A DNA stretch of 52,802 nucleotides, from IMG/VR virus record IMGVR_UViG_3300011114_000970, positions 1 through 52,802 of that record; one strand, 5' to 3'. How positions within the stretch are numbered: position 1 is the stretch's first letter; every line of letters starts with the position of its first letter. Under the pieces are notes generated by a model. The model was not told the DNA's origin. It searched no databases and saw nothing but the letters and a program-made list of their open reading frames with translations. Position numbers and translations under genes: made by a program. The stretch is from a virus. Positions 19,242 to 32,443 of the stretch are shown here, piece by piece.

Positions 19242-19660
19242 ACTAAAACTCCCTTAACTCCTAGTTCACGATACATCTCAACGATGTCTTGGCGATCGTC
19301 ATATGCTTTTTCAATTTCAAACATTTGTAGTTTTAGCATTTTGATTACATCTCTTTTTAATTCAACAGAGTGGCGATGGTCGTCGTTACCACGCATGATA
19401 AGGACTTTGTAATCGAAGCAATTATCATGCAGCCAGGATTTTGTTTTCTTTCTCATGTATTCTGGTCTGGCTGTAAGGAAAAATACATCAACAGGAGATT
19501 CGTCAACAATATGACGATTTATAACCAAATCACCACCACAATGCAAATGATACTCGTGGTATTTATGATCACCATCTGCAGCTTGAGGATCGATCATCCA
19601 ATGACGCCAGTCATCTTGACTTATGGTGTTGTCTAAATCAACAATACGGATTGTTCTCAT
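19238..19660 (-). CDS. HAD-family phosphatase, polynucleotide 3'-phosphatase-like
   Basis: 140 aa. HAD motif I is IVDLDNTIS (Asp8, Asp10), motif II FFLTARPEYMRKKTK, and motif IV AYDDRQDIVEMY. A compact HAD with motif II 'TARPE' resembles the phosphatase domain of T4-type polynucleotide kinase and related phage enzymes that trim 3' phosphates or dephosphorylate nucleotides. No kinase P-loop is present, so this is phosphatase only. It overlaps ThyX by one base (TAATG) and the MazG-like gene by four. DNA or RNA end repair or dNMP turnover are both possible. Confidence 0.8.
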   Translation of the reverse strand: MRTIRIVDLDNTISQDDWRHWMIDPQAADGDHKYHEYHLHCGGDLVINRHIVDESPVDVFFLTARPEYMRKKTKSWLHDNCFDYKVLIMRGNDDHRHSVELKRDVIKMLKLQMFEIEKAYDDRQDIVEMYRELGVKGVLV

Positions 19661-20397
19661 TATGATTTCCTTATCAAGTCAATAGCCTTTGCAATTTCCC
19701 ACCCCAAACCCTTGCCAGTGGTTATCCCGATTTCTTTTGCAGCTTTTTCTAACATCTCAATGGCAACGTCAATATCGGATTCAAAGAATGGTGCAGTCCA
19801 TGGCCAAACTGCAAGTATAAGTCGTTCCATTTCTCGAACGATTTCTCCATATTCTCCCTGTGCACGTAGCGACTTGCGTGCTTTGATTAGGTCGGTAACG
19901 GAACGGAAATTATATTTACAGATAATATTGCATTCTGTGTTCAAAGGCATAATCCCACGAGCGTCTTCGAGTGCTACGCCAGAATCAACTAGCTCTCTAT
20001 AAAAACTCCTAGCTGTATTAGCAGCATCGCGATAGATATCCAGCTGAACTGTATTCATTTTCCTGCCCTCGACAACAGCCAATTCAGACGCATCCGTTAC
20101 ACGCATCGATTGCATTGCGTAAGAAGCAGTCCTAGTTCTTGTTATTTGCTGCGCTACAGCTCGACTAATTCCACTGAGCAGGAAGGTCACGTCGACAAAC
20201 TCCCACGAGCTCTTGATTGTTTTAGCCATGTAGTCTAGCTCTGCTTTTTTCTTCTCTGGAGACCAGCTTTGTATTTCTTCCATCAATCCAGCAGAAAGAT
20301 TCAAACGAGTCTGTTTTGTAAAGATCATAACATCTGCAGCGTGCCAGACTTGGTCAGGTCTGCCAAGACCTGTATAATTCATTAATTCAATTTCCAT
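19660..20397 (-). CDS. thyX: ThyX-like flavin-dependent thymidylate synthase
   Basis: 245 aa. The ThyX signature appears as RTRTASYAMQSMR (residues 87-99). It matches RHRxxSxxxxSxR at every fixed position except that the middle His is Thr. The C-terminal substrate region is present (CNIICKYNFRSVTDLIKAR, then AQGEYGEIVREM). ThyX makes dTMP from dUMP using FAD, methylene-tetrahydrofolate and NADPH. AAGGAG lies eight bases before ATG 20397. It sits among nucleotide-metabolism genes. The His-to-Thr change touches the FAD/dUMP site, so altered activity cannot be excluded. Confidence 0.9.
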   Translation of the reverse strand: MEIELMNYTGLGRPDQVWHAADVMIFTKQTRLNLSAGLMEEIQSWSPEKKKAELDYMAKTIKSSWEFVDVTFLLSGISRAVAQQITRTRTASYAMQSMRVTDASELAVVEGRKMNTVQLDIYRDAANTARSFYRELVDSGVALEDARGIMPLNTECNIICKYNFRSVTDLIKARKSLRAQGEYGEIVREMERLILAVWPWTAPFFESDIDVAIEMLEKAAKEIGITTGKGLGWEIAKAIDLIRKS

Positions 20398-20549
20398 GGT
20401 GGTACTCCTTCAGTAATAATTCTTTTTTCTAAAACTGCTATAACTTGTAGCAGCTCTTCTTTGGTTATATCTTCTCTTAAAACATACGACTTAATTACTT
20501 CTAACGTGAACTTAACACCTTCATCGAATGCTTCGACTAAAGGACTCAT
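20382..20549 (-). CDS. 55-aa acidic helical protein ahead of thyX
   Basis: ATG at 20549 overlaps the flavoprotein stop (ATGA), and the TAA lies 16 bases inside thyX, so it fills the gap completely. The product, SPLVEAFDEGVKFTLEVIKS then REDITKEELLQVIAVLEKRI, is amphipathic helical with many Glu and Lys. Its 3' end contains the ribosome site of thyX, suggesting coupling. No family recognised; could be a small regulator or scaffold. Confidence 0.6.
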   Translation of the reverse strand: MSPLVEAFDEGVKFTLEVIKSYVLREDITKEELLQVIAVLEKRIITEGVPPWKLN

Positions 20550-21451
20550 TTTAGGCTTTCTAATTTACGAGTGTATGAATCTGCATTAACTAAACGCTTA
20601 ATTACATTAAGATCGTGCAGCACATCGTCCAAAAGAATGTTGCGCCAAGTAGCAAATCTTCCTAAAGAATAAATTTGATGATTGTGCGACAGTATTTCTA
20701 CAATATGCCTTCTTGAAGATTCATCAATAGGAGAAATTTTACCATAGGACTGTTTATGAGTGACGTCAATTACAGAAACGTCATCATAAGTTAGCCCAAA
20801 GGAAAATAAAATTTCATCCAAATCAGCTTCTCCATACAAAGGATCTTCCACTGATTCCATAATAAGCAAGTCGCCAGTTATAGAAGCACGATAAACAGGA
20901 GTTAGTGGAGAGGGGTAGTAAATCGTTTGAAAAACATCTGCATTTTTAACTCTGAATCGTTGCACTCGAATAGGGGAAAATTTAAATTGCAGCTTGTCCA
21001 TTCCCGTGATGCCGCTAAGAGTGATCATCTTGTTCATGGGGATGGTACTTATGATCGGACGATCTAAAGGTAATTCTTTAACAGGAGAGTCCCAGTGCAC
21101 TCGATGACCGACTTGGCTTATCAATTGTAAAAGAAAATCTTCTGGGGCAATATATCGATCAACTGCTTCTATATTCCAAATCGACCGATCGAAATATCCA
21201 CCTGTAACTTTGTAAGAATATAAATTAGACATCTGAATATTAGGCTGGTGAAACGCTCCTTCCATCCAGATGTTTTTATAAACTCGAATCTTGCGGAAAG
21301 GAACACCAACAGCGTCCCCAACAGCAGAAGAGCGGAAGCGCAAAACAGCTCTGTGGGACTGAGCGTCCCGAGAGGCTGCTTCGAATACTGACGCTTGCGG
21401 ATTAACTGCAGCAGCAATTAGCCCTGAGAGACCAGCGCCAAGTATAATCAT
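20546..21451 (-). CDS. FAD-binding protein, UDP-galactopyranose mutase/amine-oxidase-like fold
   Basis: 301 aa from ATG 21451, which overlaps the DUF932 stop (ATGA). An upstream GTG would place eight extra residues before the dinucleotide fold and is less likely. The N-terminus MIILGAGLSGLIAA is a GxGxxG FAD-binding beta-alpha-beta. Family landmarks are HRAVLRFRSSAVGDAVG, VISTIPMNKMITL-like ISTIPM, YRASITGDLLIMESVE and the C-terminal FAD-contact segment SLGRFATWRNILLDD. The last is like the GR-x-W element of UDP-galactopyranose mutase. Proteins of this type occur in phages without a known substrate. The neighbour ThyX also uses FAD. Sugar mutase activity is not established. Confidence 0.75.
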   Translation of the reverse strand: MIILGAGLSGLIAAAVNPQASVFEAASRDAQSHRAVLRFRSSAVGDAVGVPFRKIRVYKNIWMEGAFHQPNIQMSNLYSYKVTGGYFDRSIWNIEAVDRYIAPEDFLLQLISQVGHRVHWDSPVKELPLDRPIISTIPMNKMITLSGITGMDKLQFKFSPIRVQRFRVKNADVFQTIYYPSPLTPVYRASITGDLLIMESVEDPLYGEADLDEILFSFGLTYDDVSVIDVTHKQSYGKISPIDESSRRHIVEILSHNHQIYSLGRFATWRNILLDDVLHDLNVIKRLVNADSYTRKLESLK

Positions 21452-22185
21452 ACGAATGCCTCTGCAATTTCCCACAGCTTCATATTGACCTTGATCGTGT
21501 TGTCCATAGCACGAATGCCGTGCGTACGAGTGGCTCGACCATTACGTGATCGACCGACTACGCCACCTTTGATCATGTTTTCTTGAACCCGATTAAAAAC
21601 ACGCCAAAGATCTTCACCTTTGTCCTCGTCTCTACGAGCTTCGAGTAAAGAATTAGGCATAACACGACCACCCCAAAAAGCAGAGGCTAAAACAGAGAAT
21701 TGAGTGATTTGCGAGGCAGTTAAAATCCGTTTCTTAAACAGTTCAACTCGACGAGCTGCTTCTTGAGCTGCTTTGATAACTTTATTTGCTTCTTCAATAA
21801 CTCTCTCTGCAGTAACGTCAATATGGCGAATGCGCACAGAATCAATCTCGTGCGACTTAACGATCAATCCGTTAGAACAGATCATACGGAACATACCTGC
21901 TTCCATACGTAAAGACGAGCTGCCGTCGTTGGCGTTAATCAAAAGAATTTCAGGCACAGATCCATTGATTTCTTTTAGGTAAGATTCGTGACGCATACGT
22001 ACAAAATGCCGCACAACACGAGGATCACGCTTACGTGGCTTTAGCTGATTTGCTTGCGTAACACGGAAACCTTCCTCACGCATTAGCTCGACAACAGCTC
22101 CTGTGCTGATTAGGTCATATTTAGCAGACAATTTTTCGTATTTAATTCCGTCAATAGCTGCTTCGGGGAGTAATAATTCAGTCAT
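21448..22185 (-). CDS. DUF932 family phage protein
   Basis: 245 aa. The segment SLRMEAGMFRMICSNGLIVK (residues 91-110), together with VRHFVRMRHESYL and the terminal RATRTHGIRAMDNTIKVNMK, matches the DUF932 / plasmid-phage family. Members are found beside replication or recombination genes, but their biochemical role is not settled. AAGGAA lies upstream of ATG 22185. It is between an HTH protein and a flavoprotein in the minus operon, suggesting an early role in replication or takeover. Confidence 0.8.
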   Translation of the reverse strand: MTELLLPEAAIDGIKYEKLSAKYDLISTGAVVELMREEGFRVTQANQLKPRKRDPRVVRHFVRMRHESYLKEINGSVPEILLINANDGSSSLRMEAGMFRMICSNGLIVKSHEIDSVRIRHIDVTAERVIEEANKVIKAAQEAARRVELFKKRILTASQITQFSVLASAFWGGRVMPNSLLEARRDEDKGEDLWRVFNRVQENMIKGGVVGRSRNGRATRTHGIRAMDNTIKVNMKLWEIAEAFV

Positions 22186-22194
22186 GATAATTCC

Positions 22195-22395
22195 TTAGTT
22201 AAAAAAGGTTTTTATTTTCTGCCAAAAAGTCTTTTTGACTTTTGGTTTTACAACAACAGTGGCTTTTTTTAATTGCTTAGCCTTGTGCTTCACTTGATAA
22301 ACGTACTGCTCAGAACAGCCAACACTAGCAGCGATTTGTTTTACACTAACACCTTTCGAATCCATCTCACGGATTAATTGAGCTCTGTTTTTCAT
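22195..22395 (-). CDS. Small helix-turn-helix DNA-binding protein (66 aa)
   Basis: I start at ATG 22395, which has GGAG six bases upstream; a longer upstream frame would read across two other tiny genes. The N-terminal half is a clear HTH: QLIREMDSKGVSVKQIAASV then GCSEQYVYQVKHKAKQ, resembling resolvase/sigma-type HTH. The C-terminal half is very basic (VVVKPKVKKTFWQKIKTFF). Probably a transcriptional regulator or DNA-bound accessory factor of the early operon. Its start overlaps the stop of the preceding membrane peptide (ATGA). Confidence 0.7.
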   Translation of the reverse strand: MKNRAQLIREMDSKGVSVKQIAASVGCSEQYVYQVKHKAKQLKKATVVVKPKVKKTFWQKIKTFFN

Positions 22396-22484
22396 TGTAC
22401 ACTCCATAAAAACATCAAAGAAAATAGGATGGCAGTTAAAATAACCGCCACCCACTCGTACCAAGGTTCTCCTAGGAATTTCAA
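22392..22484 (-). CDS. 30-aa membrane peptide with TTG start
   Basis: The TTG at 22484 overlaps the stop of the preceding mini-gene, and its TGA overlaps the ATG of the HTH gene. GAGG is a few bases upstream. The product (M)KFLGEPWYEWVAVILTAILF then SLMFLWSVQ is one membrane segment with a short acidic, aromatic front. Linked stop-start overlaps on both sides argue for real translation despite the size. Function unknown; could be an antiholin-like or host-membrane-acting peptide. Confidence 0.5.
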   Translation of the reverse strand: MKFLGEPWYEWVAVILTAILFSLMFLWSVQ

Positions 22485-22585
22485 AACAACCTCGAAACAA
22501 CCCAAACAATTGTGGAGTAGATAATTAAATCAGCTACAAAAAAGTAAGGGAAATATTGACGGGAACGAAATTTTAAGACTTTCAT
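22481..22585 (-). CDS. 34-aa membrane peptide
   Basis: ATG 22585 overlaps the preceding stop (ATGA) and has AAGGAG seven bases upstream, an excellent ribosome site. The product starts MKVLKFRSRQYFPYFFVADL and continues IIYSTIVWVVSRLF: a basic N-terminus followed by one membrane-spanning segment. Positive-inside topology would place the N-terminus in the cytoplasm. No family recognised. Confidence 0.55.
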   Translation of the reverse strand: MKVLKFRSRQYFPYFFVADLIIYSTIVWVVSRLF

Positions 22586-23004
22586 TTGCTGGCTCCTTCG
22601 AGGACTTTTGCGTTTAGTTTGGTGATAAAAGAAATAAGCTGATCTGCTGATGTTACTTTTTCAGCATCAAGGCGATCGAAAGCAACCTTGAGTAAACGAT
22701 CAAGTTCGATATTGCGATCGATTGAATCAGCAATCGCTTGCACTAGGACTGCGTATTCGTCTGCACTGAGAGTGTCAGCCATATCACTGTCACAGATTTC
22801 GTCCGACCAAACCATCTCTGCGTCGTGTGCAGAAATAAGCTCGTTGTCGTCGCCTAAATCCAACCAATAACGTACGCCATCAACTTCGGCGTAGTACTGG
22901 TCGCTAACCCAACCACTGTGGGGGTTAGTCCATTGCTCGTAAGAGTTGCGACGCAGGTAGTCACCCTGCTTTTGAGTTAAGTAATACTTCGTATAAGTTT
23001 TCAT
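22582..23004 (-). CDS. Acidic phage protein of unknown function (140 aa)
   Basis: Starts at ATG 23004 behind the leader ACTGGAGAAACTT, which is nearly identical to the leader of the gene upstream. The product has a Tyr/Trp-rich front (YYLTQKQGDYLRRNSYEQW; YYAEVDGVRYWLDLGDDNEL) and a helical acidic back (DIDR-like IADSIDRNIELDRLLKVAFD). Net charge looks strongly negative, as in DNA-mimic or protein-inhibitor proteins, but no family is recognised. The well-placed ribosome site suggests high early expression. Confidence 0.65.
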   Translation of the reverse strand: MKTYTKYYLTQKQGDYLRRNSYEQWTNPHSGWVSDQYYAEVDGVRYWLDLGDDNELISAHDAEMVWSDEICDSDMADTLSADEYAVLVQAIADSIDRNIELDRLLKVAFDRLDAEKVTSADQLISFITKLNAKVLEGASK

Positions 23005-23022
23005 AAGTTTCTCCAGTTTAGA

Positions 23023-23319
23023 TTAAGCAACTACTTGAACACGTTCAGTTTTTACAGTAATCACCGAAGTAATTTTTGTAAACTTCTGAATTAATTCTTC
23101 GGGGGCATTTAACTCCGCTGCAAGACCTTTGCCGTCCAACGTACCACGTTGTGACAATGTAATTTTGCAAACGAAATCATGACCAAGTGTAGCACCTTCA
23201 CCGAACTCGTTTGCGACTGCTGCTTTGAGTTCTTTAGCACGTGCTTCAAGCAATTTGATTTGCTCGTTGATCATTCCAAGTTCGTCTACTACAGAGGTGT
23301 TTTGGTTGTTTGTTTTCAT
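23023..23319 (-). CDS. Small coiled-coil phage protein (98 aa), DUF7173-like
   Basis: I choose ATG 23319 (GGAG six bases upstream) rather than a longer open frame that would read back into the promoter. The product has an N-terminal coiled coil (GMINEQIKLLEARAKELKAA). A beta-alpha part follows (KITLSQRGTLDGKGLAAEL; ITSVITVKTERVQVVA). The coil plus 'SxRxTLD ... TxVxTVRV' layout resembles a family of small phage proteins I recall as DUF7173. Function unknown. First gene after promoter-like element P1. Confidence 0.65.
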   Translation of the reverse strand: MKTNNQNTSVVDELGMINEQIKLLEARAKELKAAVANEFGEGATLGHDFVCKITLSQRGTLDGKGLAAELNAPEELIQKFTKITSVITVKTERVQVVA

Positions 23320-23365
23320 CAGTTTCTCCAGTTTAAACCGCTCGAAAATTTCGATCGGTATAGCA

Positions 23366-23413
23366 ATTATGAGCGAAAAGTTCCACAAAGGCAACAACTT
23401 TCTTCATATTTTT
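23366..23413 (-). promoter_or_regulatory. Promoter-like element P1 (copy 1 of a 48-bp repeat)
   Basis: Read on the minus strand, -35 TTGCCT (23394-23389), a 17-bp spacer and -10 CATAAT (23371-23366), with a shared A/T-rich upstream part AAAAATATGAAGAAAGTTGT. The whole 48-bp block aligns without gaps to 23977-24024. The -10 is 47 bases before ATG 23319. Host sigma70-type recognition is inferred from spacing. Confidence 0.7.
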
Positions 23414-23424
23414 ATAAAATATTT

Positions 23425-23940
23425 TTAGATTTCAGCTAACTCATTGTTTTTATTGGTAATTTTTATCCAATCAGGGCATCCTACAGTACAACGATCCCAT
23501 TTCATCCAGGTATTTTCGTCGGTTTTCTTCTGATAATACTGGCGATAGGCAATAACAGCATCGGGATTCTTGCATTCATCAGGCATAGCCTGAGCAAATG
23601 GGGTCGGGGCTGCGAATAAAAGCGCAGGTGGGGGAGAAACAAGCTCGCCTGTAAAAAACCCATGGCAAGCGTGAAATTTGTCGTATCGTATTTTATATTC
23701 ACGAGCTAATGCTTGCCCTAACGACACTAACCAGAGATAATTCGTTCTTGAAGCAGCTGCCCAGACAACACAAGGGTGTTTTTCATGAGTCGGTTTATAA
23801 GTAACAGCTGCACCGTTACCGTGAATGTGGTGAACTGTAGCTAAAATTTGCGCAGTTTCGAGCACCATTTTTACGACGTGTTTGTCGCTATGAGCCTTGG
23901 CTGCCATGATTGGTATGTGGTGAAGTATAAATATGTTCAT
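23425..23940 (-). CDS. Conserved phage protein of unknown function (171 aa)
   Basis: Start ATG 23940 (MNIFILHHIPIMAAKAHSDK) follows promoter-like element P2. The diagnostic string is SDKHVVKMVLETAQILAT, then THEKHPCVVWAAASRTNYLW and MPDECKNPDAVIAYRQYY. This pattern is found in a protein widespread in T4-like and other phages that lacks an assigned activity. Several His, Lys and Trp are conserved, which could fit a nucleotide or DNA enzyme, but I do not assign one. First gene of the minus operon. Confidence 0.75.
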   Translation of the reverse strand: MNIFILHHIPIMAAKAHSDKHVVKMVLETAQILATVHHIHGNGAAVTYKPTHEKHPCVVWAAASRTNYLWLVSLGQALAREYKIRYDKFHACHGFFTGELVSPPPALLFAAPTPFAQAMPDECKNPDAVIAYRQYYQKKTDENTWMKWDRCTVGCPDWIKITNKNNELAEI

Positions 23941-23976
23941 CTGTTTTTCCTGTTTGTTCGGTTGACTACGAAAGAA

Positions 23977-24024
23977 ATTATGCAACAAAAATTCGCAAAA
24001 GAAAACAACTTTTTTCATATTTTT
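23977..24024 (-). promoter_or_regulatory. Promoter-like element P2 (copy 2 of the 48-bp repeat)
   Basis: On the minus strand, -35 TTTTCT (24005-24000), 17-bp spacer, -10 CATAAT (23982-23977), preceded by AAAAATATGAAAAAAGTTGT. Gap-free match to P1 with identical spacing. The -10 lies 37 bases before ATG 23940. It occupies most of the divergent intergenic region, so it may also influence the + strand gene at 24042. Confidence 0.72.
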
Positions 24025-24041
24025 TGTAAATCTTTGTTTCT

Positions 24042-24503
24042 ATGAGAGAATCTGCGCTTTGGGCGTCCCTAAAAAGCTCAGGTCAACTCCCTTTTTCAGT
24101 CAGAGTGGAGTCACCTGCTTCTCCTGGACTGCCTGATGTTTATTTTGCATTGGGCAACGGCATAACGGGTTGGATTGAATTAAAAGTCGTACCTGATTCG
24201 CACAAAAAAATAATAACCCAAGGAACAGGTGTTGGGCAGCTCAGACCGCTACAGGTTTTATGGGCGCAACAAGCCAGCGAAAAAAATATTTTTACCTGCG
24301 TGTTGCTTTTTGCGCAAAAGCGAGGCATACTTGTCTCAGGTCGAGATGTAAAGGCATTATTGTCTGCACCGCTCGAGCAAGTCTTAACAAAAGCATTGTG
24401 GATTGGCAGCATTAGTCCACGCAAGCGTTGGGACGGATTACTGGAGAAACTGGATAAACATGGAACAATTGAAACTATTCAAATGGCAACAAACTGCACT
24501 TGA
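24042..24503 (+). CDS. VRR-NUC family nuclease (PD-(D/E)XK)
   Basis: 153 aa. Core nuclease residues appear as GLPDVYFALG (Asp32) and GWIELKVV (Glu46, Lys48), preceded by an N-terminal Glu3 helix. The 'PGLPD ... WIELK' layout is that of standalone phage VRR-NUC proteins, structure-specific nucleases thought to process branched DNA. No Shine-Dalgarno precedes ATG 24042 and an in-frame stop is at 24027, so the message may be leaderless or very short-led. The next gene, a helicase, starts 44 bases before its end, matching the common VRR-NUC/SNF2 pair. Confidence 0.88.
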   Translation: MRESALWASLKSSGQLPFSVRVESPASPGLPDVYFALGNGITGWIELKVVPDSHKKIITQGTGVGQLRPLQVLWAQQASEKNIFTCVLLFAQKRGILVSGRDVKALLSAPLEQVLTKALWIGSISPRKRWDGLLEKLDKHGTIETIQMATNCT

Positions 24504-25752
24504 TCGCTCTGTCAATGAGGCTTCTTATGGGCTTTTTGCTGATCCTGGAACAGGTAAAACATACGCAGCGCTAACCATCGCAAAGCATTGGACAAACGCA
24601 GCCATAGTCATCTGTCCGCTTTCTGTGAAGGAACAATGGCACAAGGAAGCAAAGACAGTAAAAATTCCTGTTGTTGTGTTCCACTACGAGCAATTGCGCC
24701 AAAAGAAATTTTTCGACGTCATTTCCACAACACTCAAGAGTAACGAAATAACGTTAATCCTTGACGAAAGTCATCGTATAAAGAGTCCTAGTGCTTTAAC
24801 AACTAAAGCAGCGCTGAAACTTTCTTTCTTAGCGAGCCATAAGTTAGCGCTAACAGGAACACCAACAGCAAACAGTCCTGCCGATTTATATACGCAATTG
24901 AAATTCCTCAAGCCAGAAAAGAAAATGGAAACGTATCGTGACTTCCAAAGTGAATACATAGAAGCATTGCCATTCAACCATCCACTCATGAAACGTATAG
25001 CTGGTAGACCTTTCATCCCTCGCAAAGATAAAAATGGTCGTATGGTTCTGAAGAATATAGAAAATCTAAAAGCTCGTATAACGAGCTACGGATGCACGGT
25101 GAAACTCAATGAGGTGGTGGAGTTACCTGAACGTAGTTTCGTGCAGAAATATTGCGAGCCAAGCAAAGAATTATTAAAAACATATAATGAATTACGTAAG
25201 AATTACACTGCTAAATTTTTAACCAAAGAAGTCACAGCGCAAAATGCCGCCGTGCTTGCTGGTCGTCTTGTCAGACTGACCAGTGGTTATGGGCACGCTG
25301 ACTTTGACGTTTCTTTTCCGAACCCTAAATTGCAAGACCTGCTCGAAGACATAGCCTCTTATGTTGCAGTGGGTAAAGTTATTGTCTGGAGCGTTTGGGT
25401 TGATGAACGCAAAGACGTAATCAAAGAGCTAAAGGAAGCAGGTTACAAGATTGCAATTGAACCCAAAGAATTTATAGAAGGTGACGCACAAATCTTAGTT
25501 GCTTCTCCTAAGATGTTTGGTACTGGCTTAAACTTGCAACTCGCAAAATATCAATTGTGGCTTTCACGCTCGTGGTCATTGCTTGAAAGAGAGCAAGCAT
25601 TAGCGAGGAACTATAGAGCTGGACAAACGGAGAAAACAGTCGTGGTTGATTACCTAACAAAAAATACAATCGACGAGTTTGTGCTCCGTGCATTAGAAAC
25701 AAAAACAGATTTATTAAATCGAATTATGACAACAGGAGCATTTGATGCCTAG
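24460..25752 (+). CDS. SNF2-type DEAD/DEAH helicase
   Basis: 430 aa from ATG 24460; an earlier TTG in frame is less likely. Helicase motifs in order: I ADPGTGKT (residues 27-34), Ia VICPLSVKEQW, II ILDESH (100-105), III ALTGTPT (130-136), V ASPKMFGTGLNLQLA and VI ARNYRAGQ. This is the short SNF2/ERCC-like helicase common in phage replication modules, moving on double-stranded DNA using ATP. It overlaps the VRR-NUC gene by 44 bases, in line with joint action on branched intermediates or replication forks. Confidence 0.92.
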   Translation: MEQLKLFKWQQTALDRSVNEASYGLFADPGTGKTYAALTIAKHWTNAAIVICPLSVKEQWHKEAKTVKIPVVVFHYEQLRQKKFFDVISTTLKSNEITLILDESHRIKSPSALTTKAALKLSFLASHKLALTGTPTANSPADLYTQLKFLKPEKKMETYRDFQSEYIEALPFNHPLMKRIAGRPFIPRKDKNGRMVLKNIENLKARITSYGCTVKLNEVVELPERSFVQKYCEPSKELLKTYNELRKNYTAKFLTKEVTAQNAAVLAGRLVRLTSGYGHADFDVSFPNPKLQDLLEDIASYVAVGKVIVWSVWVDERKDVIKELKEAGYKIAIEPKEFIEGDAQILVASPKMFGTGLNLQLAKYQLWLSRSWSLLEREQALARNYRAGQTEKTVVVDYLTKNTIDEFVLRALETKTDLLNRIMTTGAFDA

Positions 25753-26080
25753 AGTATTTGTAACATCTAACCGCATGCGGAAGGACTCAGTAACAAAAGA
25801 GTTACGACCTATTGTGGATTTACGTCCTGCTGAACAGCATGGTCAACTTGTTTCTATTTTTGACCACGACATGGAGCCAAACAATCAAACTGATATGGCT
25901 GCAGCGAGAGATCGATTAACTGATTTTGATCCATTTGAAGATTTCATTTTGCCGAATGGCTCGCCAGTAGCAACCCTAGCAGCGGGATTAATTCTTGGAG
26001 AAAAACAAATGCCAGAAGTGCAAGTGCTTGTGTGGGACAGAATCTATCTCAAATACATTTTGACTGTGGTTGAACTATGA
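25745..26080 (+). CDS. Hypothetical protein between helicase and DUF2800 genes (111 aa)
   Basis: ATG 25745 has GGAG six bases upstream and lies inside the helicase stop region. The product begins MPRVFVTSNRMRKDSVTKEL, followed by acidic ILDL-like IVDLRPAEQHGQLVSIFDHD and DRLTDFDPFEDFILPNGSPV. A hydrophobic end follows (VLVWDRIYLKYILTVVEL). No family recognised. It overlaps the DUF2800 gene by four bases, so it is part of the replication operon. Confidence 0.6.
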   Translation: MPRVFVTSNRMRKDSVTKELRPIVDLRPAEQHGQLVSIFDHDMEPNNQTDMAAARDRLTDFDPFEDFILPNGSPVATLAAGLILGEKQMPEVQVLVWDRIYLKYILTVVEL

Positions 26081-27045
26081 GCTTGCATGCGAAACTATCT
26101 CCCAGTGGATCAGCAAGGTGGCTGTCTTGTCCTGGATCTGTTTGGTTAGCAGAAGAAGCACCGATTCCAATAAGTACCGCAGCCGCAACAGAAGGCACAG
26201 ATGCGCATGAATGGGCTGCAAAGATTCTGCTTGGCGGTGATGACTTTGATTGCCCTTACACAGGCTTAGACATTTACGTCAATCGAGTACGTGCCTCAGC
26301 AGAGCGCAAAGGTGCGCAGCTCTGGATTGAAGAACGAGTCTACCTGACAGAAGACATTCACGGCACTCCTGATGCTTGTGTTATGTATAAAAAAGAATTA
26401 GAAGTATTCGATTTGAAATATGGATACAACAAAGTCGAAGCGATGGATAATACACAAATGATTATCTATGCTGGCGCAGCGATCAAGACTTATAATCTTA
26501 ACCCCAGCAAGATAATTCTACACATCGTGCAACCTCGTGCAGGTGGCATTCGTTCTTGTGTTATGACTCGTAAATTATTCGAGGCAAGATTAAAAACTAT
26601 CCTTGCAGCGGCGGATGATCTTTTAAAGAATCCTGCAGCTCCACGCCAAGCAGGCGAACACTGTCAGTACTGCGTTGCAGCGACGATCTGTCCAGAGCGT
26701 TCAACAGAAGCAAAACGGATGGCAGAAATTGCATTCCGTACGGTGCAAGAAGTAGACGAAGATATGTTGATCTGGGCTATTGAAAGCAAAAAACGTATTG
26801 TTGAATGGTTTGACACAATGAATACTTACGCACTTGAAAAACCACCAACAGGATACGCAGTGGTGCAAGGTCAAGGCAGAAGAATTTGGCGCACTGACAT
26901 AGAAGTGCCAACAGTTTTGAAAGCGATGACGCTATCAGAAGCAGAAAAAGCAGGTTACCCACTGGATGACTTAACAGTGAAAAAACCTGGACCACTAACG
27001 CTTGTGAAAAAAGAAGTTGACACTGATCAATTTTCTGATTTATGA
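26077..27045 (+). CDS. DUF2800 protein, Cas4/RecB-like nuclease fold
   Basis: 322 aa. The opening LSPSGSARWLSCPGSVWLA and EGTDAHEWAAKIL are typical of DUF2800. Nuclease-type residues lie in HGTPDACV (Asp99) and VFDLKYG (Asp112, Lys114), giving a PD-(D/E)XK arrangement. Cys18 plus the cluster Cys196, Cys199 and Cys205 (GEHCQYCVAATICPE) mirrors the split Cys set of Cas4/AddB proteins that hold an iron-sulfur cluster. An exonuclease role in recombination or end processing is inferred. Starts in overlap with the previous gene; directly precedes the single-strand binding protein. Confidence 0.85.
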   Translation: MSLHAKLSPSGSARWLSCPGSVWLAEEAPIPISTAAATEGTDAHEWAAKILLGGDDFDCPYTGLDIYVNRVRASAERKGAQLWIEERVYLTEDIHGTPDACVMYKKELEVFDLKYGYNKVEAMDNTQMIIYAGAAIKTYNLNPSKIILHIVQPRAGGIRSCVMTRKLFEARLKTILAAADDLLKNPAAPRQAGEHCQYCVAATICPERSTEAKRMAEIAFRTVQEVDEDMLIWAIESKKRIVEWFDTMNTYALEKPPTGYAVVQGQGRRIWRTDIEVPTVLKAMTLSEAEKAGYPLDDLTVKKPGPLTLVKKEVDTDQFSDL

Positions 27046-27051
27046 GTTTTG

Positions 27052-27081
27052 ACACAAGTGCTATGGCTGTAACACTTGTGT
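27052..27081 (+). terminator. Hairpin with partial T tract after the DUF2800 gene
   Basis: Perfect 9-bp stem ACACAAGTG / CACTTGTGT (27052-27060 and 27073-27081) with a 12-base loop, followed by TCCTTTTAT. The T run is broken, so it is probably a weak terminator or a transcript-stabilising hairpin between two operon genes. Confidence 0.55.
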
Positions 27082-27119
27082 TCCTTTTATCCAGCCATTT
27101 GTCTAAGGAGTAATTGAGT

Positions 27120-27674
27120 ATGAGTACTATTTCCCCTATTGGGCGTATTTCCTTCCCCCATTTATTCAAACCACAGCAGAATGATCGTGGCGAGAATGTA
27201 TGGTCGCTGGTTATTGTATTCGATAAAAAAGCGCAAGCTTCTGAAGAATATAAAGCGATGGAAGCAGGTGTTCAAGCTGCAGCTGTAGAGCGTTTTGGTG
27301 CTAAAATGCCAGCTGGTGTAAAGCGTAAATCGTTGGAGCCAAAGTCAGGCTATCCAATCACACTGTGCGAAACAAAGCCAGAGTGGTTTGCTTGGGCTGG
27401 TGAAGGCAGCACGATGATTACTTTTTCCAGTAAATATGCGCCTGTGGTGATTGACCGTAACAAGACGGAAATCTTGGATCAAGCAGAAGTATACGCAGGG
27501 CAGTTTGGTCGTGTGCAGTGGACGACTTATGCCTATGATGCTTCAGGCAATCAGGGTGTTTCTTTCGGGTTGCGTGCTTATCAAAAAGTGAAGGATGGTG
27601 AAGCACTCTCGGGTGGTAAACCAGATCTCGGCGCATTCGGTGAAGTTACAGAAGAAGACGTCGAAGCATTTTAA
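27120..27674 (+). CDS. Single-stranded DNA-binding protein, DUF2815 type
   Basis: 184 aa from ATG 27120 (AAGGAG nine bases upstream); the in-frame TTG at 27114 is too close to that site. The opening GRISFPHLFKPQQND then VWSLVIVFDKKA is typical of DUF2815, with an OB-like beta domain (FGRVQWTTYAYDASGNQGVS). The acidic C-terminal tail, FGEVTEEDVEAF, is the usual protein-contact tip of phage single-strand binding proteins. It would coat single-stranded DNA and recruit replication partners. A strong hairpin follows its stop. Confidence 0.85.
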   Translation: MSTISPIGRISFPHLFKPQQNDRGENVWSLVIVFDKKAQASEEYKAMEAGVQAAAVERFGAKMPAGVKRKSLEPKSGYPITLCETKPEWFAWAGEGSTMITFSSKYAPVVIDRNKTEILDQAEVYAGQFGRVQWTTYAYDASGNQGVSFGLRAYQKVKDGEALSGGKPDLGAFGEVTEEDVEAF

Positions 27675-27680
27675 GTTGTA

Positions 27681-27713
27681 AGAGTGTCCGAGGGCAACCT
27701 CGGCACTCTCTTT
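27681..27713 (+). terminator. Hairpin terminator after the SSB gene
   Basis: Stem AGAGTG-T-CCGAGG / CCTCGG-CACTCT (27681-27693 and 27698-27709) with one bulged T and a GCAA tetraloop, then CTTTC. Strong stem but short T run; likely a partial terminator or attenuator giving more SSB than primase message. Confidence 0.7.
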
Positions 27714-27726
27714 CACTGCAAAGAAT

Positions 27727-29811
27727 ATGAAAATTATAAAATTCGAAAGACAAACAAAAGAGCTGCATCTGCCTGACGATATGTTAGCAGAAAAACGCTG
27801 GTTAGTTTGGAGAGAAGAGGATGGGCGCAAAGTCCCGTACTACCCAACGACGCATCGGCGGCGTAGCGGAACTATGGAAACTGCGCAGGATTTAGCAGCG
27901 ATGGGGAGCCACGCTGACGCAATGGATTCTTTACGTAACCACGTACCTCATTACACAGGTTTGGGTTATGCAATTACGAGTGGTAATATTCTTATTGACT
28001 TGGACGACGTACTCGGAGAAAGCGGCAAGTTCATAGACAAATGGGCAGAGCTATTTGTTTACAAGGCTGTAGCTGCTGGAGCATTTGTGGAAGTTTCTCA
28101 ATCTGGTACGGGAATTCACGTCATTGGGCGTGGCCATGCGAGGAAAGCAGGGTCAAAAAATATCAATATCGAAGTCTATCCTGATAAGCGCTTTGTCGCC
28201 ATCACTGGTGAATTGTTACCCAATGCAGATTGCCCTGACGACTTAACGGACGTTTCTGAATTCGCTGAAGAAGCTTTATTAGAGTATCAAAAGCGTTGCG
28301 AAGAAAAAGGATTGAATTCTTTATCTTCTGCATTAGCTTCAGAAGACGAAATCGCCTACCTCAAGGGTCAAGTCGAAGGTGACGTTCTTACGCAGATCCG
28401 TACATTGTTAGGTGTTTTTTCTCCTGACGAACGCGACCAGTGGTTTAAGGTTGGATTAGCATTGGGCAGGTCATACCCCAACGACCAGATGGTATTCGAA
28501 GAGTATGCAAAGTGGTCACGTGCTTCACCAAACTACTCAGCGCCAAGAGATGAAAAGACCATGCAAGATCTTTTCTTCCGTCAAGCATTGCAACCAACAA
28601 AGTCGAAATATACCCTCGACACCATGATAATGCAAGCGCAACAAGTCGGCGTACAGCTGAAACTTTTTGCGCAAGCGTTTGACGATTTACCCCTCAGTGA
28701 AGAAGAAGTAAAAATAAAGCGCATGTTCGGCTGGGAAAATAATAAGCACGACGCTAATCATCTTTTTTTGCATCCCCCACCGCCAATGGAATTCATCATT
28801 GAAGATATTCTACCAAAACACCGCACGACCTTTGCAGCTCCAGGAGGAACAGGTAAGACTCAGCTGACTCTTTGGATGGCTCTACACGTGGCAGCAGGGA
28901 GAAAGTTGTTCGGTCGTTACGAAGTCAAACGTCCTGGAAAAGTCCTCGTAATGAATGCCGAAGACCCAAAGCAACAACTGCAACGTAGGTTGATAACCCT
29001 TGCCAACAGTATGGAATGGGACAGCGAAGCAGAGAAATATGCAGCGTTTGAGAATGTAGCATTCGTAGATTTCGAAACTGACACCATCGCACTTTCTGCG
29101 CAGGTGCAAAGAACGAATCATTACGATATAACTAAGACAGTGCAAGAGATAATTAAATCTTACAAAGAAACAGGTCTGTCTTGGGTTATTTTTGACCCGA
29201 TGACGCTTTTCGGCTTTGACGAGGCAGGCGGCAATGACTCTGCTTCCGCAATGATGAAAGCGTCAGGAATTCTTGCTGATCAGTTGAACTGCGCAGTCAC
29301 TTATGTAACCCACACCACCAAAGCAGGCGCAAGAGCTGGCGAAGCAGACATGCATACAACTCGAGGTGCGGCGGCTTTTGGAGATTTGACGAGGGCGCAT
29401 TGGAATCTTATCAATCACAGACCTTATGATCCGCTTTCCAGAACTCGATACTTGCAACTTTCATTCGACAAAGCATCCTACGCACCGCCGCAATCGAGCG
29501 TATTTCTTATGTCTGTGGAGAACAATCGGTTCATCAGTTATGACCCTGAAGACAGCAATGAAGGATTCGAAGATGAACTTTGGGAAGGCATAAAACGTGC
29601 AATCGTCACGCTCCGTAAAAACGGCGAGGGGTGTTCTGTGGAGACAGTTTCTACGTATGGTTATGAAATCCAGAACCAAAGTGTCGGCAAAACAAGAGTC
29701 AAACCGAAGATTAGGGAGTGGTTGGAAGCAGGGAGATTAGAAACTTTTACAGAAGGCAAACGCAAGCAACAACTGCGAGTTAATAAACAATGGGAAGAGG
29801 AGAATTTTTAA
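27727..29811 (+). CDS. Primase-helicase: prim-pol N-terminus plus RepA/DnaB-like AAA ATPase
   Basis: 694 aa. The N-terminal primase-polymerase part has ILIDLDDV (Asp91, Asp93), EVSQSGTGIHVIGRG (His131) and EVYPDKRFVAITG. A PriCT-2-like linker follows (FSPDERDQWFKVGLALGRSY, about 231-250). The C-terminal RecA-fold ATPase has Walker A AAPGGTGKT (370-378), MNAEDPKQQLQRRL and Walker B SWVIFDP (Asp490). The end TYVTHTTKAG ... GDLTRAHW is typical of RepA-like helicases. It would unwind and prime DNA for the DnaE-like polymerase. Preceded by the SSB gene and a hairpin. Confidence 0.88.
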   Translation: MKIIKFERQTKELHLPDDMLAEKRWLVWREEDGRKVPYYPTTHRRRSGTMETAQDLAAMGSHADAMDSLRNHVPHYTGLGYAITSGNILIDLDDVLGESGKFIDKWAELFVYKAVAAGAFVEVSQSGTGIHVIGRGHARKAGSKNINIEVYPDKRFVAITGELLPNADCPDDLTDVSEFAEEALLEYQKRCEEKGLNSLSSALASEDEIAYLKGQVEGDVLTQIRTLLGVFSPDERDQWFKVGLALGRSYPNDQMVFEEYAKWSRASPNYSAPRDEKTMQDLFFRQALQPTKSKYTLDTMIMQAQQVGVQLKLFAQAFDDLPLSEEEVKIKRMFGWENNKHDANHLFLHPPPPMEFIIEDILPKHRTTFAAPGGTGKTQLTLWMALHVAAGRKLFGRYEVKRPGKVLVMNAEDPKQQLQRRLITLANSMEWDSEAEKYAAFENVAFVDFETDTIALSAQVQRTNHYDITKTVQEIIKSYKETGLSWVIFDPMTLFGFDEAGGNDSASAMMKASGILADQLNCAVTYVTHTTKAGARAGEADMHTTRGAAAFGDLTRAHWNLINHRPYDPLSRTRYLQLSFDKASYAPPQSSVFLMSVENNRFISYDPEDSNEGFEDELWEGIKRAIVTLRKNGEGCSVETVSTYGYEIQNQSVGKTRVKPKIREWLEAGRLETFTEGKRKQQLRVNKQWEEENF

Positions 29812-30036
29812 ATGAATAAAAATGATAAAGGTCTTATGAAGCAGATGATCGAAGCTGGAAGATTTAATTACGGGATTTATGAATTGCTCGTCGAACAAAA
29901 TGCAGAAAATGCAAAACAAGCAGTCAAAAGGATGGGAGATAAATGGTGCTGTCACCCGAGTAATCAGGTTAAGCGCTTAGAAATACCATTGCCAATTTTG
30001 TCTGATGCAAAGATAAAGGTGCTAAAAAAGAAATGA
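29812..30036 (+). CDS. Small basic protein after the primase-helicase (74 aa)
   Basis: Starts directly after the previous stop. The product (KNDKGLMKQMIEAGRFNYGI, EQNAENAKQAVKRMGDKWC, then KVLKKK) is basic and helical with a Cys pair in DKWCCHPSNQV. No family recognised. Its stop overlaps the next start (ATGA), so it belongs to the same operon. Confidence 0.6.
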   Translation: MNKNDKGLMKQMIEAGRFNYGIYELLVEQNAENAKQAVKRMGDKWCCHPSNQVKRLEIPLPILSDAKIKVLKKK

Positions 30037-30197
30037 GGCTGAGAATAAGAAGGGAGAAAAATCGTTTAGCGACGCAACGCAGAAGCAGTCGATTTATGCG
30101 AGGCATACGCAATCGCTTTGAATCTTTTAAGTTACGTATGGCTTTTGGCAGAAGGGCAGTTATTCATTGGTGGGATAAAAAACGAGGAAAGGATTAG
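30033..30197 (+). CDS. Very basic 54-aa protein
   Basis: ATG 30033 overlaps the previous stop (ATGA), and TAG 30195-30197 ends one base before the next ATG. The product is rich in Arg and Lys (MRLRIRREKNRLATQRRSSR, RGIRNRFESFKLRM, AFGRRAVIHWWDKKRGKD). It fills a gap that would otherwise be 160 bases. Charge suggests nucleic-acid or ribosome binding; not recognised. Confidence 0.55.
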   Translation: MRLRIRREKNRLATQRRSSRFMRGIRNRFESFKLRMAFGRRAVIHWWDKKRGKD

Positions 30198-30198
30198 C

Positions 30199-30408
30199 AT
30201 GACCACTTTTACTACAGAGGATAGGATTGCATCAGCGGCTGGACCAGACGTAATCCGTCGAGGGTTTACTTCACTAACCGCAGCACGAGGATTCCGTCAG
30301 AATTTAAAGAACCCAGAAGCGTATTACATCGTCGAAATTCAAGAGCATTGGCCGAATCCAGGACCAAATCTTGGGTTTTATATTATTAATAAAAAGGAGG
30401 AATTATGA
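30199..30408 (+). CDS. Small hypothetical protein (69 aa)
   Basis: ATG 30199 follows GGAAAGG. The product (TTFTTEDRIASAAGPDVIRR, GFTSLTAARGFRQNLKNPEA, YYIVEIQEHWPNPGPNLGFY) looks like a compact alpha/beta domain. No catalytic motif seen. It overlaps the next gene by four bases. Confidence 0.6.
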   Translation: MTTFTTEDRIASAAGPDVIRRGFTSLTAARGFRQNLKNPEAYYIVEIQEHWPNPGPNLGFYIINKKEEL

Positions 30409-30704
30409 AAGATCTAATCGTTGGAACAATTTTATTTTTTGTCGGATTTAGCTTTGGGGTTGTTAATTGCAAAGCACAGACGATCTACTACACAGGGAGT
30501 TATGGGCAACTCATGGGAGTGGCGAACACAATAGGGAATCAAACCTATTATTCAAACAACTATGGGCAACTCATGGGGGTGGCTAGTGTTGCGCCAGCCA
30601 CAGTAACGCAGCCACTTATGCAAAATGAAATCACAAAACCCGCCATGCCGACTTCCCAGAACATTGTGCCACTTATGCCACTTATGCCAATTTATACAAG
30701 ATAG
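30405..30704 (+). CDS. Secreted repeat-containing protein (99 aa)
   Basis: The N-terminal signal or anchor is DLIVGTILFFVGFSFGVVNC, with possible cleavage near KAQ. The mature part has two copies of a repeat ending YGQLMGVA (YYTGSYGQLMGVANTIGNQT; YYSNNYGQLMGVASVAP), then a Pro/Met-rich tail. This resembles small exported proteins with YxxxxGQxxGxA repeats found in bacteria and phages. GGAGG sits just upstream of ATG 30405. Possible envelope role; unassigned. Confidence 0.65.
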   Translation: MKDLIVGTILFFVGFSFGVVNCKAQTIYYTGSYGQLMGVANTIGNQTYYSNNYGQLMGVASVAPATVTQPLMQNEITKPAMPTSQNIVPLMPLMPIYTR

Positions 30705-30715
30705 GAGTATTTATT

Positions 30716-31012
30716 ATGAAAAAGTTAATTTTAAGTTCTGCAGTATTTTTGTTAGTCGCTTGTAGTGGTCCAAAAGCTCCAGGAGGTGTTCAGTACAACA
30801 GCAATGCGCCACCCCAAACTTTAATTATTGATCCAGCAGTTCAAGCGTTAAGCCGTCAAGAAACAATCCAAGCTAGCCATGAGTGTTTAGCAGGTGGAAT
30901 GCAACCACTAATTATCTACGGCAAGCGTCGGATTGGTAACTCAGCAATGGCGACTGATATTCCTGTGGAAGTTTTGTGTACAACAAAGTGGGATCTTATA
31001 AAGAGGATGTAA
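30716..31012 (+). CDS. Predicted lipoprotein (98 aa)
   Basis: Signal peptide MKKLILSSAVFLLVACSG with a good lipobox (LVAC, Cys16), so the mature protein would be lipid-anchored on the envelope. The mature part has two Cys (ASHECLAGG, VEVLCTTKW) and no catalytic motif. ATAGGAG precedes ATG 30716. Lipoproteins expressed outside the lysis cassette in phages sometimes block superinfection, but nothing here proves it. Confidence 0.72.
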   Translation: MKKLILSSAVFLLVACSGPKAPGGVQYNSNAPPQTLIIDPAVQALSRQETIQASHECLAGGMQPLIIYGKRRIGNSAMATDIPVEVLCTTKWDLIKRM

Positions 31013-31089
31013 TGACAGCATTTGAAGATCAGGTTATTAAGCTGCTTAAAAAGATTTTGGCAATACTAAGAAAGGCACAGGAGAAATGA
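31012..31089 (+). CDS. 25-aa amphipathic peptide
   Basis: TAATG overlap with the lipoprotein stop, GAGG five bases upstream, and ATGA overlap with the next gene. The product TAFEDQVIKLLKKILAILRK is a basic amphipathic helix. Size makes the call tentative; coupling on both sides is the main support. Confidence 0.45.
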   Translation: MTAFEDQVIKLLKKILAILRKAQEK

Positions 31090-31241
31090 TTGAAGAAGAT
31101 AAAAACCATCTAAGAGATCTGTTTGCTGCTTTGGCTATGCACTCCTTAGTTGGGAAGAGTAAAACACTCCCTAGTGCTGAATTAGCTGCTAAGGCTTATG
31201 AATTGGCAGACTGTATGATTAGAGCTAAAAGTGAATACTGA
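31086..31241 (+). CDS. 51-aa conserved-looking phage protein
   Basis: Begins in ATGA overlap with the previous stop. The product (DLRD-like HLRDLFAALAMHSLVG ... SAELAAKAYELADCMIRA) matches a recurring small phage pattern: 'LRDxFA..A' followed by 'A..AYxxADxMxxAR'. This pattern occurs in many unrelated phages beside replication genes. Function unknown. Confidence 0.62.
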   Translation: MIEEDKNHLRDLFAALAMHSLVGKSKTLPSAELAAKAYELADCMIRAKSEY

Positions 31242-31317
31242 AAGAATCTTTTTTGCAATGGGGCTACTTTTGTTCATTGCCGTGTGCTTGATCGTCCGAG
31301 AGTACTGCGGGATATGA
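31231..31317 (+). CDS. 28-aa membrane peptide, GTG start
   Basis: GTG 31231 lies inside the end of the previous gene, with AGAG just upstream. The product (M)NTERIFFAMGLLLFIAVCLI then VREYCGI is one membrane segment. An internal ATG at 31258 would give a shorter version. It ends two bases before the repeat-rich non-coding block. Tentative because of size. Confidence 0.4.
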   Translation: MNTERIFFAMGLLLFIAVCLIVREYCGI

Positions 31318-31354
31318 CTGGCGGAACATCGGCGGAACTCAGGCGGAACTCGAA

Positions 31355-31391
31355 ACCATACAGGGCATGGGTTAGCGGATATGTTCCGCCA
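31355..31391 (+). repeat. Longer direct repeat, copy 1 (ACCATACAGG ... TTCCGCCA)
   Basis: ACCATACAGGGCATGGG followed by GCGGATATGTTCCGCCA. The same order of blocks recurs at 31531-31561 with a short deletion in between. It ends in an inverted 11-bp site and contains a GCGGA/TCCGC inverted repeat. Confidence 0.8.
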
Positions 31392-31431
31392 CACTCCGCT
31401 TTTTGTTTTATCAGCATGGGAATCAAGCGTA

Positions 31432-31470
31432 GGGGGTGGGAGAGGAGCGTAAGCGAACTCCTCTCCCCCC
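31432..31470 (+). other. Long GC-rich hairpin inside the site array
   Basis: Perfect 10-bp stem GGGAGAGGAG / CTCCTCTCCC (31438-31447 and 31458-31467), extended by GGG/CCC past one bulged T. The loop holds a small CG/CG mini-stem. No T run follows, so it is not a simple terminator. It sits between inverted sites 1 and 2. Confidence 0.8.
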
Positions 31471-31530
31471 GAGTTCCGCCAGTGTCCTCTTCTCTTAGGG
31501 GGTCGGCGGAGCGGCGGATCAAGTGTTTTG

Positions 31531-31561
31531 ACCATACAGGATATGGGATTATGTTCCGCCA
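31531..31561 (+). repeat. Longer direct repeat, copy 2
   Basis: ACCATACAGGATATGGG then ATTATGTTCCGCCA, matching 31355-31391 at both ends. It indicates that part of the array arose by duplication of about 176 bp. Confidence 0.78.
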
Positions 31562-31767
31562 GTGGGGTCAAAAAATGGGGAGTGTGCTGGCGGATCTTAA
31601 CCCCACGAAATGTATGGGTGTCGTTTTTTGCGAAAATTTGTCCCTTGTATCCATTGGGCTCGAGTTCCGCCAGCTGATGAGGTGTGTGCGGGGTATGGGA
31701 TGTAGGTGAGGCTTTTTATTTTTTTATTTTAGAGAGAGAATTCATATTTGACAAAAAGGAGAAAAAT

Positions 31768-31944
31768 ATGAATGTTTCGAAAACAAAAAATAAAGTTCTG
31801 GTTAATGGAGTTAAATATCATAGCGTGTGTGAGGCTTTTTTGAAACTTGAATTGCCTTTAGCAAAGCACCAATTGTTTAGGAAAAAATTAAAAATTGAGA
31901 AAAAAGCGACATATGCAGGCTATGAATTTGAAGTGGTTGAGTGA
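31768..31944 (+). CDS. Small NUMOD1-like DNA-binding protein (58 aa)
   Basis: ATG 31768 is preceded by AAAGGAG with good spacing. The product VNGVKYHSVCEAFLKLELPL ... HQLFRKKLKIEKKATYAGYE has the 'GxxYxSvxeAfxxL...fRxxLK' pattern of short helix-turn-helix modules used by homing-type proteins and phage DNA-binding factors. It is basic. Located between the site array and the terminase genes, it is a candidate to bind that array. Family call is pattern-based. Confidence 0.58.
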   Translation: MNVSKTKNKVLVNGVKYHSVCEAFLKLELPLAKHQLFRKKLKIEKKATYAGYEFEVVE

Positions 31945-31962
31945 ACAACTTTTGTGGGGGGA

Positions 31963-31991
31963 TTTTCTTTTCTTAAATTCCAAGGCATAAT
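31963..31991 (+). promoter_or_regulatory. Promoter-like element P3 ahead of the terminase operon
   Basis: -35 TTTTCT (31963-31968), 17-bp spacer, -10 CATAAT (31986-31991). The hexamers and spacing equal P2 and the -10 equals P1. The -10 is 33 bases before ATG 32024. The A/T-rich upstream part of P1/P2 is not conserved here. Confidence 0.62.
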
Positions 31992-32023
31992 TCATTTATT
32001 CCAACTTTTTTTTGGACCAAATA

Positions 32024-32443
32024 ATGGAGACATCAACAGTTGTAACAGCACCTAAACGCAGGGGCGGGAGGGTGAAAGGTGGGACAGCAGTCAAGCGAGA
32101 CATGCGTGAGCGCTTACTCGGACGACTCGACATGATGACTGTGACACCTTTGGAGGTGATGTATTTGACCATGAAAGATTTTTGGGACAAGGACGAAAAG
32201 ATTGCAGCTTGCGCAATTGCTCGAGACTTAGCGCCTTACATTCATCCAAAGCTAACAGCGATTCAACAACAGATTATAACAGATGACTCGAAAAAAGTGG
32301 CGGATGAGCGCTCCTTTGATAAAATTTTGAATGCATTGGAGCTTGGTGTAGAAATGCGCAAAGATTTGGCGGCTGGTCGAACTTCCAAGGTTATTGCTGA
32401 GCAAACAACAATAATTGAAACAATCGATGACGCTCCTGATTAA
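32024..32443 (+). CDS. terS: Putative small terminase subunit
   Basis: 139 aa from ATG 32024 (GGA seven bases upstream); a TTG at 32012 is an alternative. The N-terminus is basic (PKRRGGRVKGGTAVKRDMRE), the middle helical (MYLTMKDFWDKDEKIAACAI), followed by ARDLAPYIHPKLTAIQQQ. The 'APYxHPKLxAI' segment is a recognised feature of small proteins encoded just before phage large terminases. It would recognise phage DNA and regulate the large subunit. It overlaps the large subunit gene by 17 bases. The fold is not certain. Confidence 0.75.
   Translation: METSTVVTAPKRRGGRVKGGTAVKRDMRERLLGRLDMMTVTPLEVMYLTMKDFWDKDEKIAACAIARDLAPYIHPKLTAIQQQIITDDSKKVADERSFDKILNALELGVEMRKDLAAGRTSKVIAEQTTIIETIDDAPD

Follow-up and report, generated by a model that had tools for sequence, protein, structure and literature searches.

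Repeated sites between the replication and packaging genes

The window, i.e. the whole 52,802-nucleotide stretch of virus record IMGVR_UViG_3300011114_000970, carries a non-coding block of short repeated sites downstream of a primase-helicase gene and upstream of the putative terminase genes. The features of this region are listed below, with the sites named as iterons in keeping with the reading developed later.

27727..29811, + strand: primase-helicase of 694 aa, the proposed initiator, with a PrimPol-type primase, PriCT_2, an RSF1010 RepA-like helicase (AAA_25) and a C-terminal domain
29512..29808, + strand: C-terminal ~100 aa of the primase-helicase, a proposed iteron-binding winged-helix-like domain with a weak profile match to relatives
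31320..31351, + strand: three direct iterons, GGCGGAACAT / GGCGGAACTC / GGCGGAACTC, 11 bp start to start
31381..31390, − strand: inverted iteron GGCGGAACAT, exact match
31435..31470, no strand assigned: central hairpin GGTGGGAGAGGAGCG-TAAG-CGAACTCCTCTCCCCCC, 36 nt, the best-conserved stretch of the block
31471..31480, − strand: inverted iteron GGCGGAACTC, directly 3' of the hairpin, exact match, kept in relatives
31490..31500, + strand: TTCTCTTAGGG element, CTCTWAGRG-like, with an inverted site on one side and a direct site on the other, recurring in most hairpin-type arrays
31505..31522, + strand: overlapping pair of degenerate direct iterons, GGCGGAGC (31505) and GGCGGATCAA (31513)
31551..31560, − strand: inverted iteron GGCGGAACAT, exact match
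31589..31598, + strand: direct iteron GGCGGATCTT, one mismatch
31662..31671, − strand: inverted iteron GGCGGAACTC, exact match, the final site of the array
31706..31765, no strand assigned: AT-rich stretch past the final site, a candidate DNA unwinding element

The earlier note on this DNA had described seven NGGCGGAACWY sites, three of them direct at 11 bp and four inverted, and this was borne out by a script count: GGCGGAACWY occurs exactly on the + strand at 31320, 31331 and 31342 and on the − strand at 31381, 31471, 31551 and 31662 (n=7), against an expectation of 0.18 for the whole window, and seven copies were reached in none of 100 shuffles. The genome-wide search that the note had proposed placed all seven exact copies of NGGCGGAACWY within 31,320–31,671 and none elsewhere in the window, where five copies with one mismatch were found. 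The degenerate copies that it had also claimed were recovered by script at 31589 (one mismatch) and 31513 (two mismatches), and by eye at 31505. A second repeat, ACCATACAGGRYATGGG, is present at 31355–31371 and 31531–31547 (88 % identical), ahead of two of the inverted sites; it was not seen in the alignment of relatives.

The G+C content of the block is 51 % in 31201–31600, compared with ~42 % around it, and 35.5 % in 31601–32000. The GC skew, which had been put forward as a check, did not switch at the array; its sign change at ~23.6 kb tracks gene direction and is of no help to an origin reading. The block looks non-coding, as had been described, in that the longest + strand ORF (31284–31709) showed no coding signal when compared with four relatives. 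Substitutions in its frame were spread evenly across codon positions, indels in the block were mostly not multiples of 3, and stops were present in every frame of the block in the four relatives; a protein-coding reading was rejected on these grounds. Searches of the block for tRNAs and for Rfam families gave no match, and DNA similarity to named phages did not exceed 22-base chance matches. The hairpin, which the earlier note had lacked, is part of the conserved unit and is a possible single-strand priming or cruciform element. When 2.9 million viral contigs were scanned, its core was found in six, in all of them at the equivalent position; no copy was found in a genome collection of 84,980 species.

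The primase-helicase matched the PrimPol of phage NrS-1, primase entry 7ola from a SaPI (N-terminus) and the RSF1010 RepA helicase, and the Pfam families identified in it were PriCT_2 and AAA_25. The AlphaFold model of the C-terminus of the window protein was of low confidence (pLDDT 48), and its profile matched the C-termini of related phages weakly (probability 59 %). The C-terminus of the relative L110, modelled from an alignment of 14, comprised helices plus a wing (pLDDT 78). Winged-helix domains were the best matches to it in the PDB (probability up to 1.0, with weak E-values, E 0.03), and it is predicted to be a winged helix.

Two genes follow the array. The 58-aa HTH-like protein (31768–31944) has the pattern Y.SV..AF..L.LP..KHQ.FRKKLK and is 47–61 % identical in most close relatives, being absent in L066; nothing beyond a weak PHROG match was obtained for its family. 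The gene at 32024 (32024–32443), which had been called terS, keeps this assignment by position and conservation, whereas support from its family was not obtained, the only match being to a PHROG of unknown function, with no Pfam family. Its product hardly varies over a central stretch (MTVTPLEVMYLTMKDFWDKDEKIAACAIARDLAPYIHPKLTAIQQQ), and no homologue was found in named phages (50,697 phage records).

Arrays in related phages

TerL and TerS searches, together with the hairpin scan, yielded some dozen contigs that belong to the group of the window. In every close relative covering the region, the block sits between small genes and TerS. The alignment of related phages that had been called for showed that the kind, orientation and phase of the sites are conserved, including the 11-bp step, as are the hairpin and the CTCTWAGG element after it. 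The 11-bp tandem pair or triplet lies at 45030/45041/45052 in G001, 21820/21831 in G002 and 25561/25572 in G003, and in four relatives the array contains all or most copies of the motif (11/11, 8/10, 8/9 and 6/6). The site letters shift in concert, from GGCGGAAC in the window to GACGGAAC in L142 and L151–L154, GACGGATC with GACGGAGC in L144/L150, and GACGGAGC in L066, which is the pattern that would be expected of many sites under one reader protein. The case named in the earlier note as fatal to its proposal, sites that vary while an encoded protein is conserved, does not apply: no protein is conserved there.

The array is separated from the helicase gene by 1.5 kb and several small genes in the window, and by ~14 kb in G001 (the contig of L144/L150), where the helicase gene lies in an inverted block and the array remains beside terS. 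Compared with window positions 15700–31700, the replication block of G001 (polymerase to primase-helicase, C1:25009–45400) differs in gene order and strands, as would result if a large segment had been inverted, with one breakpoint among the small genes that precede the array. Four independent contigs (L155, L156, L148 and L066) end, at position 1, inside the array, each at a different base, and L155 begins within the right arm of the hairpin; these ends are probably assembly breaks at inverted repeats. No direct terminal repeat was found in the record.

More distant relatives (TerL 73–78 % identical) have TerS proteins of other families, but an array is present at the corresponding position in most of them. 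There the array starts directly after the stop codon of the primase-helicase gene, ahead of terS, and in some relatives another gene separates it from terS. The sites of these arrays are unrelated and fall into about a dozen motif classes: GAAGTTGCT, AACCGATAG, CAAACCG, AACCGTCT, AAACCAGA, CAGGCGAG, GGAACCAACGG-like, AGTAACAG, AGGTTACA, AATTACAA and AGTATCAA. Across 33 dereplicated loci, the window group included, arrays were significant against shuffles at p≤0.05 in 30 and at p≤0.01 in 21; the weakest, those of L141, L085 and L138, fell short of p 0.05. L078, L103, L108 and L135 had arrays of a second type, in which an AT-rich TATATA centre takes the place of the G-rich hairpin between clusters of sites.

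Named phages whose helicase or TerL is related (MW202545, Caulobacter GB2A, Curvibacter PCA1, Acinetobacter Acjo_20, Vibrio 1.123.O, Pseudomonas PSV3 and Microbacterium Byron23) showed no comparable array beside the helicase gene, so that no cultured test system was found. The absence of such an array next to the distant helicases of isolated phages was counted against the origin reading.

Site identity and the candidate reader proteins

Plain correlations of motif similarity were high with every protein (Spearman 0.46–0.52) and hardly discriminated between them, so that discordant pairs and partial tests were needed. TerS is 97–99 % and TerL 96–99 % identical among L098, L110 and L085, each of which has a helicase C-terminus of its own and a site unrelated to those of the other two. 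Likewise, L129 and L102 are 92 % identical in TerS and 95 % in TerL, and differ in their sites and in the C-terminus (28 % identity). The converse was also found: L102 shares the site AACCGATAG with L073 (C-termini 43 % identical, TerS only 55 %), and both site and C-terminus (83–85 %) are shared by L070/L067 and L071/L076/L068, with TerS about 52 % identical. All nine pairs with TerS at least 70 % and C-terminus less than 45 % identical had a motif similarity of 0, compared with a mean of 0.61 for pairs alike in both (n=39). In partial Mantel tests the motif correlated with the C-terminus given TerS at 0.31 (p 0.0005), and with TerS given the C-terminus at 0.18 (p 0.001); weaker partial correlations with TerS, TerL and the helicase core persist and were counted against the origin reading.

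DNA comparisons placed the boundaries of these differences. Between L123 and L102, a pair with helicase cores 91 % identical, DNA identity is 72–93 % in the core, drops to about 15–48 % in the stretch that begins some 300 bp before the helicase stop and ends some 230 bp after it, and then recovers. L110 and L085 are mostly 95–100 % identical through TerS, with unlike C-termini and arrays. Since the drop in identity is limited to the C-terminus and the array, the two travel together: in the relatives, the C-terminal domain of the helicase moves with its array as a single cassette. Site identity follows this domain and not TerS, TerL or the helicase core. Several pairs with C-termini 42–58 % identical have no motif in common, and specificity is thus not readable simply from overall identity; such differences could be expected if few residues change specificity. 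In the window group, small concerted changes in the C-terminus and in the site were seen together; TerS and site are inseparable within this group, and the test of TerS rests on the relatives.

These comparisons bear on what else the block might be. A pac or cos site, at which the small terminase subunit encoded just downstream would bind the phased sites and start packaging, is improbable. Although the array immediately precedes terS-terL in every close relative, stays there in G001 despite the inverted replication block, and contains the ends of four contigs, site specificity does not follow TerS in the relatives: near-identical TerS proteins occur with unrelated sites (L098/L110/L085 and L129/L102), one site occurs with differing TerS proteins (L102/L073), and the nine pairs matched in TerS and unmatched in the C-terminus had no common motif. 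Moreover, another gene intervenes before terS in some relatives, and the contig ends are scattered in the manner of assembly breaks at repeats. We consider it very unlikely that the block is an operator, bound cooperatively by the 58-aa protein or another repressor that controls its own gene and the packaging genes. In L066 the array directly precedes TerS and the gene for the 58-aa protein is missing, which makes this protein an unlikely common reader even though its gene comes after the array in most close relatives; a tblastn search of the other clades with arrays found no homologue of this protein. The spread of the sites over 350 bp around the hairpin, and the tracking of the helicase C-terminus by the site sequence in relatives, also argue against an operator.

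Equally little weight is given to a structured RNA or single-stranded DNA, in which the copies would matter by pairing and the concerted changes would keep base pairs rather than protein contacts. It would account for the 13/13 complementarity of 31317–31329 and 31551–31563 (the 31551 site plus flanks), and has a precedent in pRN1, where the stem-loop that forms the origin lies 3' of the primase-helicase gene (PMC4234260). Compared with shuffles, either strand folds much better (z −5.1 and −7.5), but these scores were not counted as evidence of structure because inverted sites yield them whatever their function; the 11-bp tandem direct copies fit protein binding better, and Rfam offered no match. 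Since pairing may add to the working of an origin in the form of a cruciform, this alternative is partly compatible with the origin reading.

A probable replication origin and its relation to known systems

Of the three options that the earlier note had left side by side, origin iterons gained support, recognition by TerS was contradicted in the relatives and an operator of the small HTH-like protein became unlikely. We regard it as probable that the block is a replication origin whose sites are iterons read by the C-terminus of the phage's own primase-helicase. Several short repeated sites lie in one non-coding block and are nearly unique to it in the genome, and in the related clades the sites covary with a cognate initiator of the same replicon. 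An initiator that combines primase and helicase with a DNA-binding end, phased iterons specific for that end and a conserved hairpin together make a replication origin the simplest reading. AT-rich stretches, after the final site in the window and at the array centre in the L078/L103 type, are candidates for an unwinding element. The C-terminal domain would bind the phased sites, several initiator molecules would assemble on them into an initiation complex, and DNA would melt at the hairpin or in the nearby AT-rich stretch; the helicase ring would then assemble and synthesis be primed, perhaps at the hairpin. We infer the binding, the start of replication at the block and the role of the hairpin from sequence comparison, and the coupling of C-terminus and site is extended from the relatives to the window, where the 1.5 kb between the helicase gene and the array is the main gap between the two; origins can act at a distance.

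Initiator–iteron specificity is familiar from lambda O and the iterons of its ori, although the lambda initiator is not a helicase, and from oriV of RSF1010, with RepC at iterons, the RepA helicase and the RepB' primase at hairpins. The window helicase is related in sequence to that of RSF1010 (RepA), and RSF1010 uses separate proteins for jobs that one chain would do in the window phage.

Origins of PICIs (SaPI and Gram-negative) lie just 3' of the initiator gene and have a central region flanked on either side by sets of iterons (PMC6092414). The window resembles them in its order of primase/initiator gene, non-coding block of short repeats and, further on, terS; it differs in being a ~53-kb phage with a RepA-like helicase (AAA_25) and in having a GC-rich hairpin, not an AT-rich region, at the centre of the array. 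An array immediately 3' of the initiator gene is found in the distant relatives but not in the window or G001, and two sets of sites flanking an AT-rich region are found in the L078/L103 arrays but not in the window. For the PrimQH primases (AEP – PriCT – RepA/DnaB helicase – winged helix), passages of PMC5862659 suggest a C-terminal winged helix for origin recognition. The window protein has the first three of these domains in the same order, and the winged helix is weak in its own C-terminus and supported by the model of the relative's; the likeness is one of domain order. A cognate origin is proposed here, unlike in those passages, which describe none.

In the PLE satellites of Vibrio cholerae, the binding domain of RepA covaries with the iterons and is swapped together with them, the rest of the initiator being conserved (PMC8263062). 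The joint exchange of DNA-binding domain and array is similar, whereas PLE has an N-terminal RepA_N domain and ~30-bp iterons and is a satellite, not a phage. In pRN1, which encodes the primase-helicase-winged helix protein ORF904, the origin is 3' of the gene and its structure is conserved more than its sequence (PMC4234260); it differs from the block in having an SF3 helicase, one large stem-loop and no iterons. Domain shuffling in phage replication initiators has also been reported (PMC10684548).

The principle is already known from these systems: a C-terminal winged helix has been proposed for origin recognition (PMC5862659), origins lie 3' of the initiator (PMC6092414, PMC4234260), and a binding domain is exchanged with its origin as a cassette (PMC8263062). 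What appears to be new is an origin in this phage group, the version with a RepA helicase and how many unrelated site types occur in phages whose terminases are otherwise similar; a literature search found no description of such an origin in this group, which does not prove its absence. A probable origin and the part of the protein that would read it were thereby located from sequence alone in an uncultured phage group, and the matched pairs of domain and site form a natural series for learning rules of winged-helix recognition.

The comparisons suggest a much quicker turnover of origin specificity than of the packaging and helicase genes. Tentatively, the origin address may be under strong diversifying selection, the cassette of initiator domain and array being traded between phages with up to ~95–99 % identical terminases. 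About a dozen origin types, none compatible with another, would be the outcome, and the driving force may be origin-targeting parasites, rival phages or defence nucleases; the PLE swaps have been linked to a phage origin-directed nuclease (PMC8263062). If selection does drive this turnover, the phages themselves would provide a second case of conflict at the level of the origin, the first being that of the Vibrio PLE satellites.
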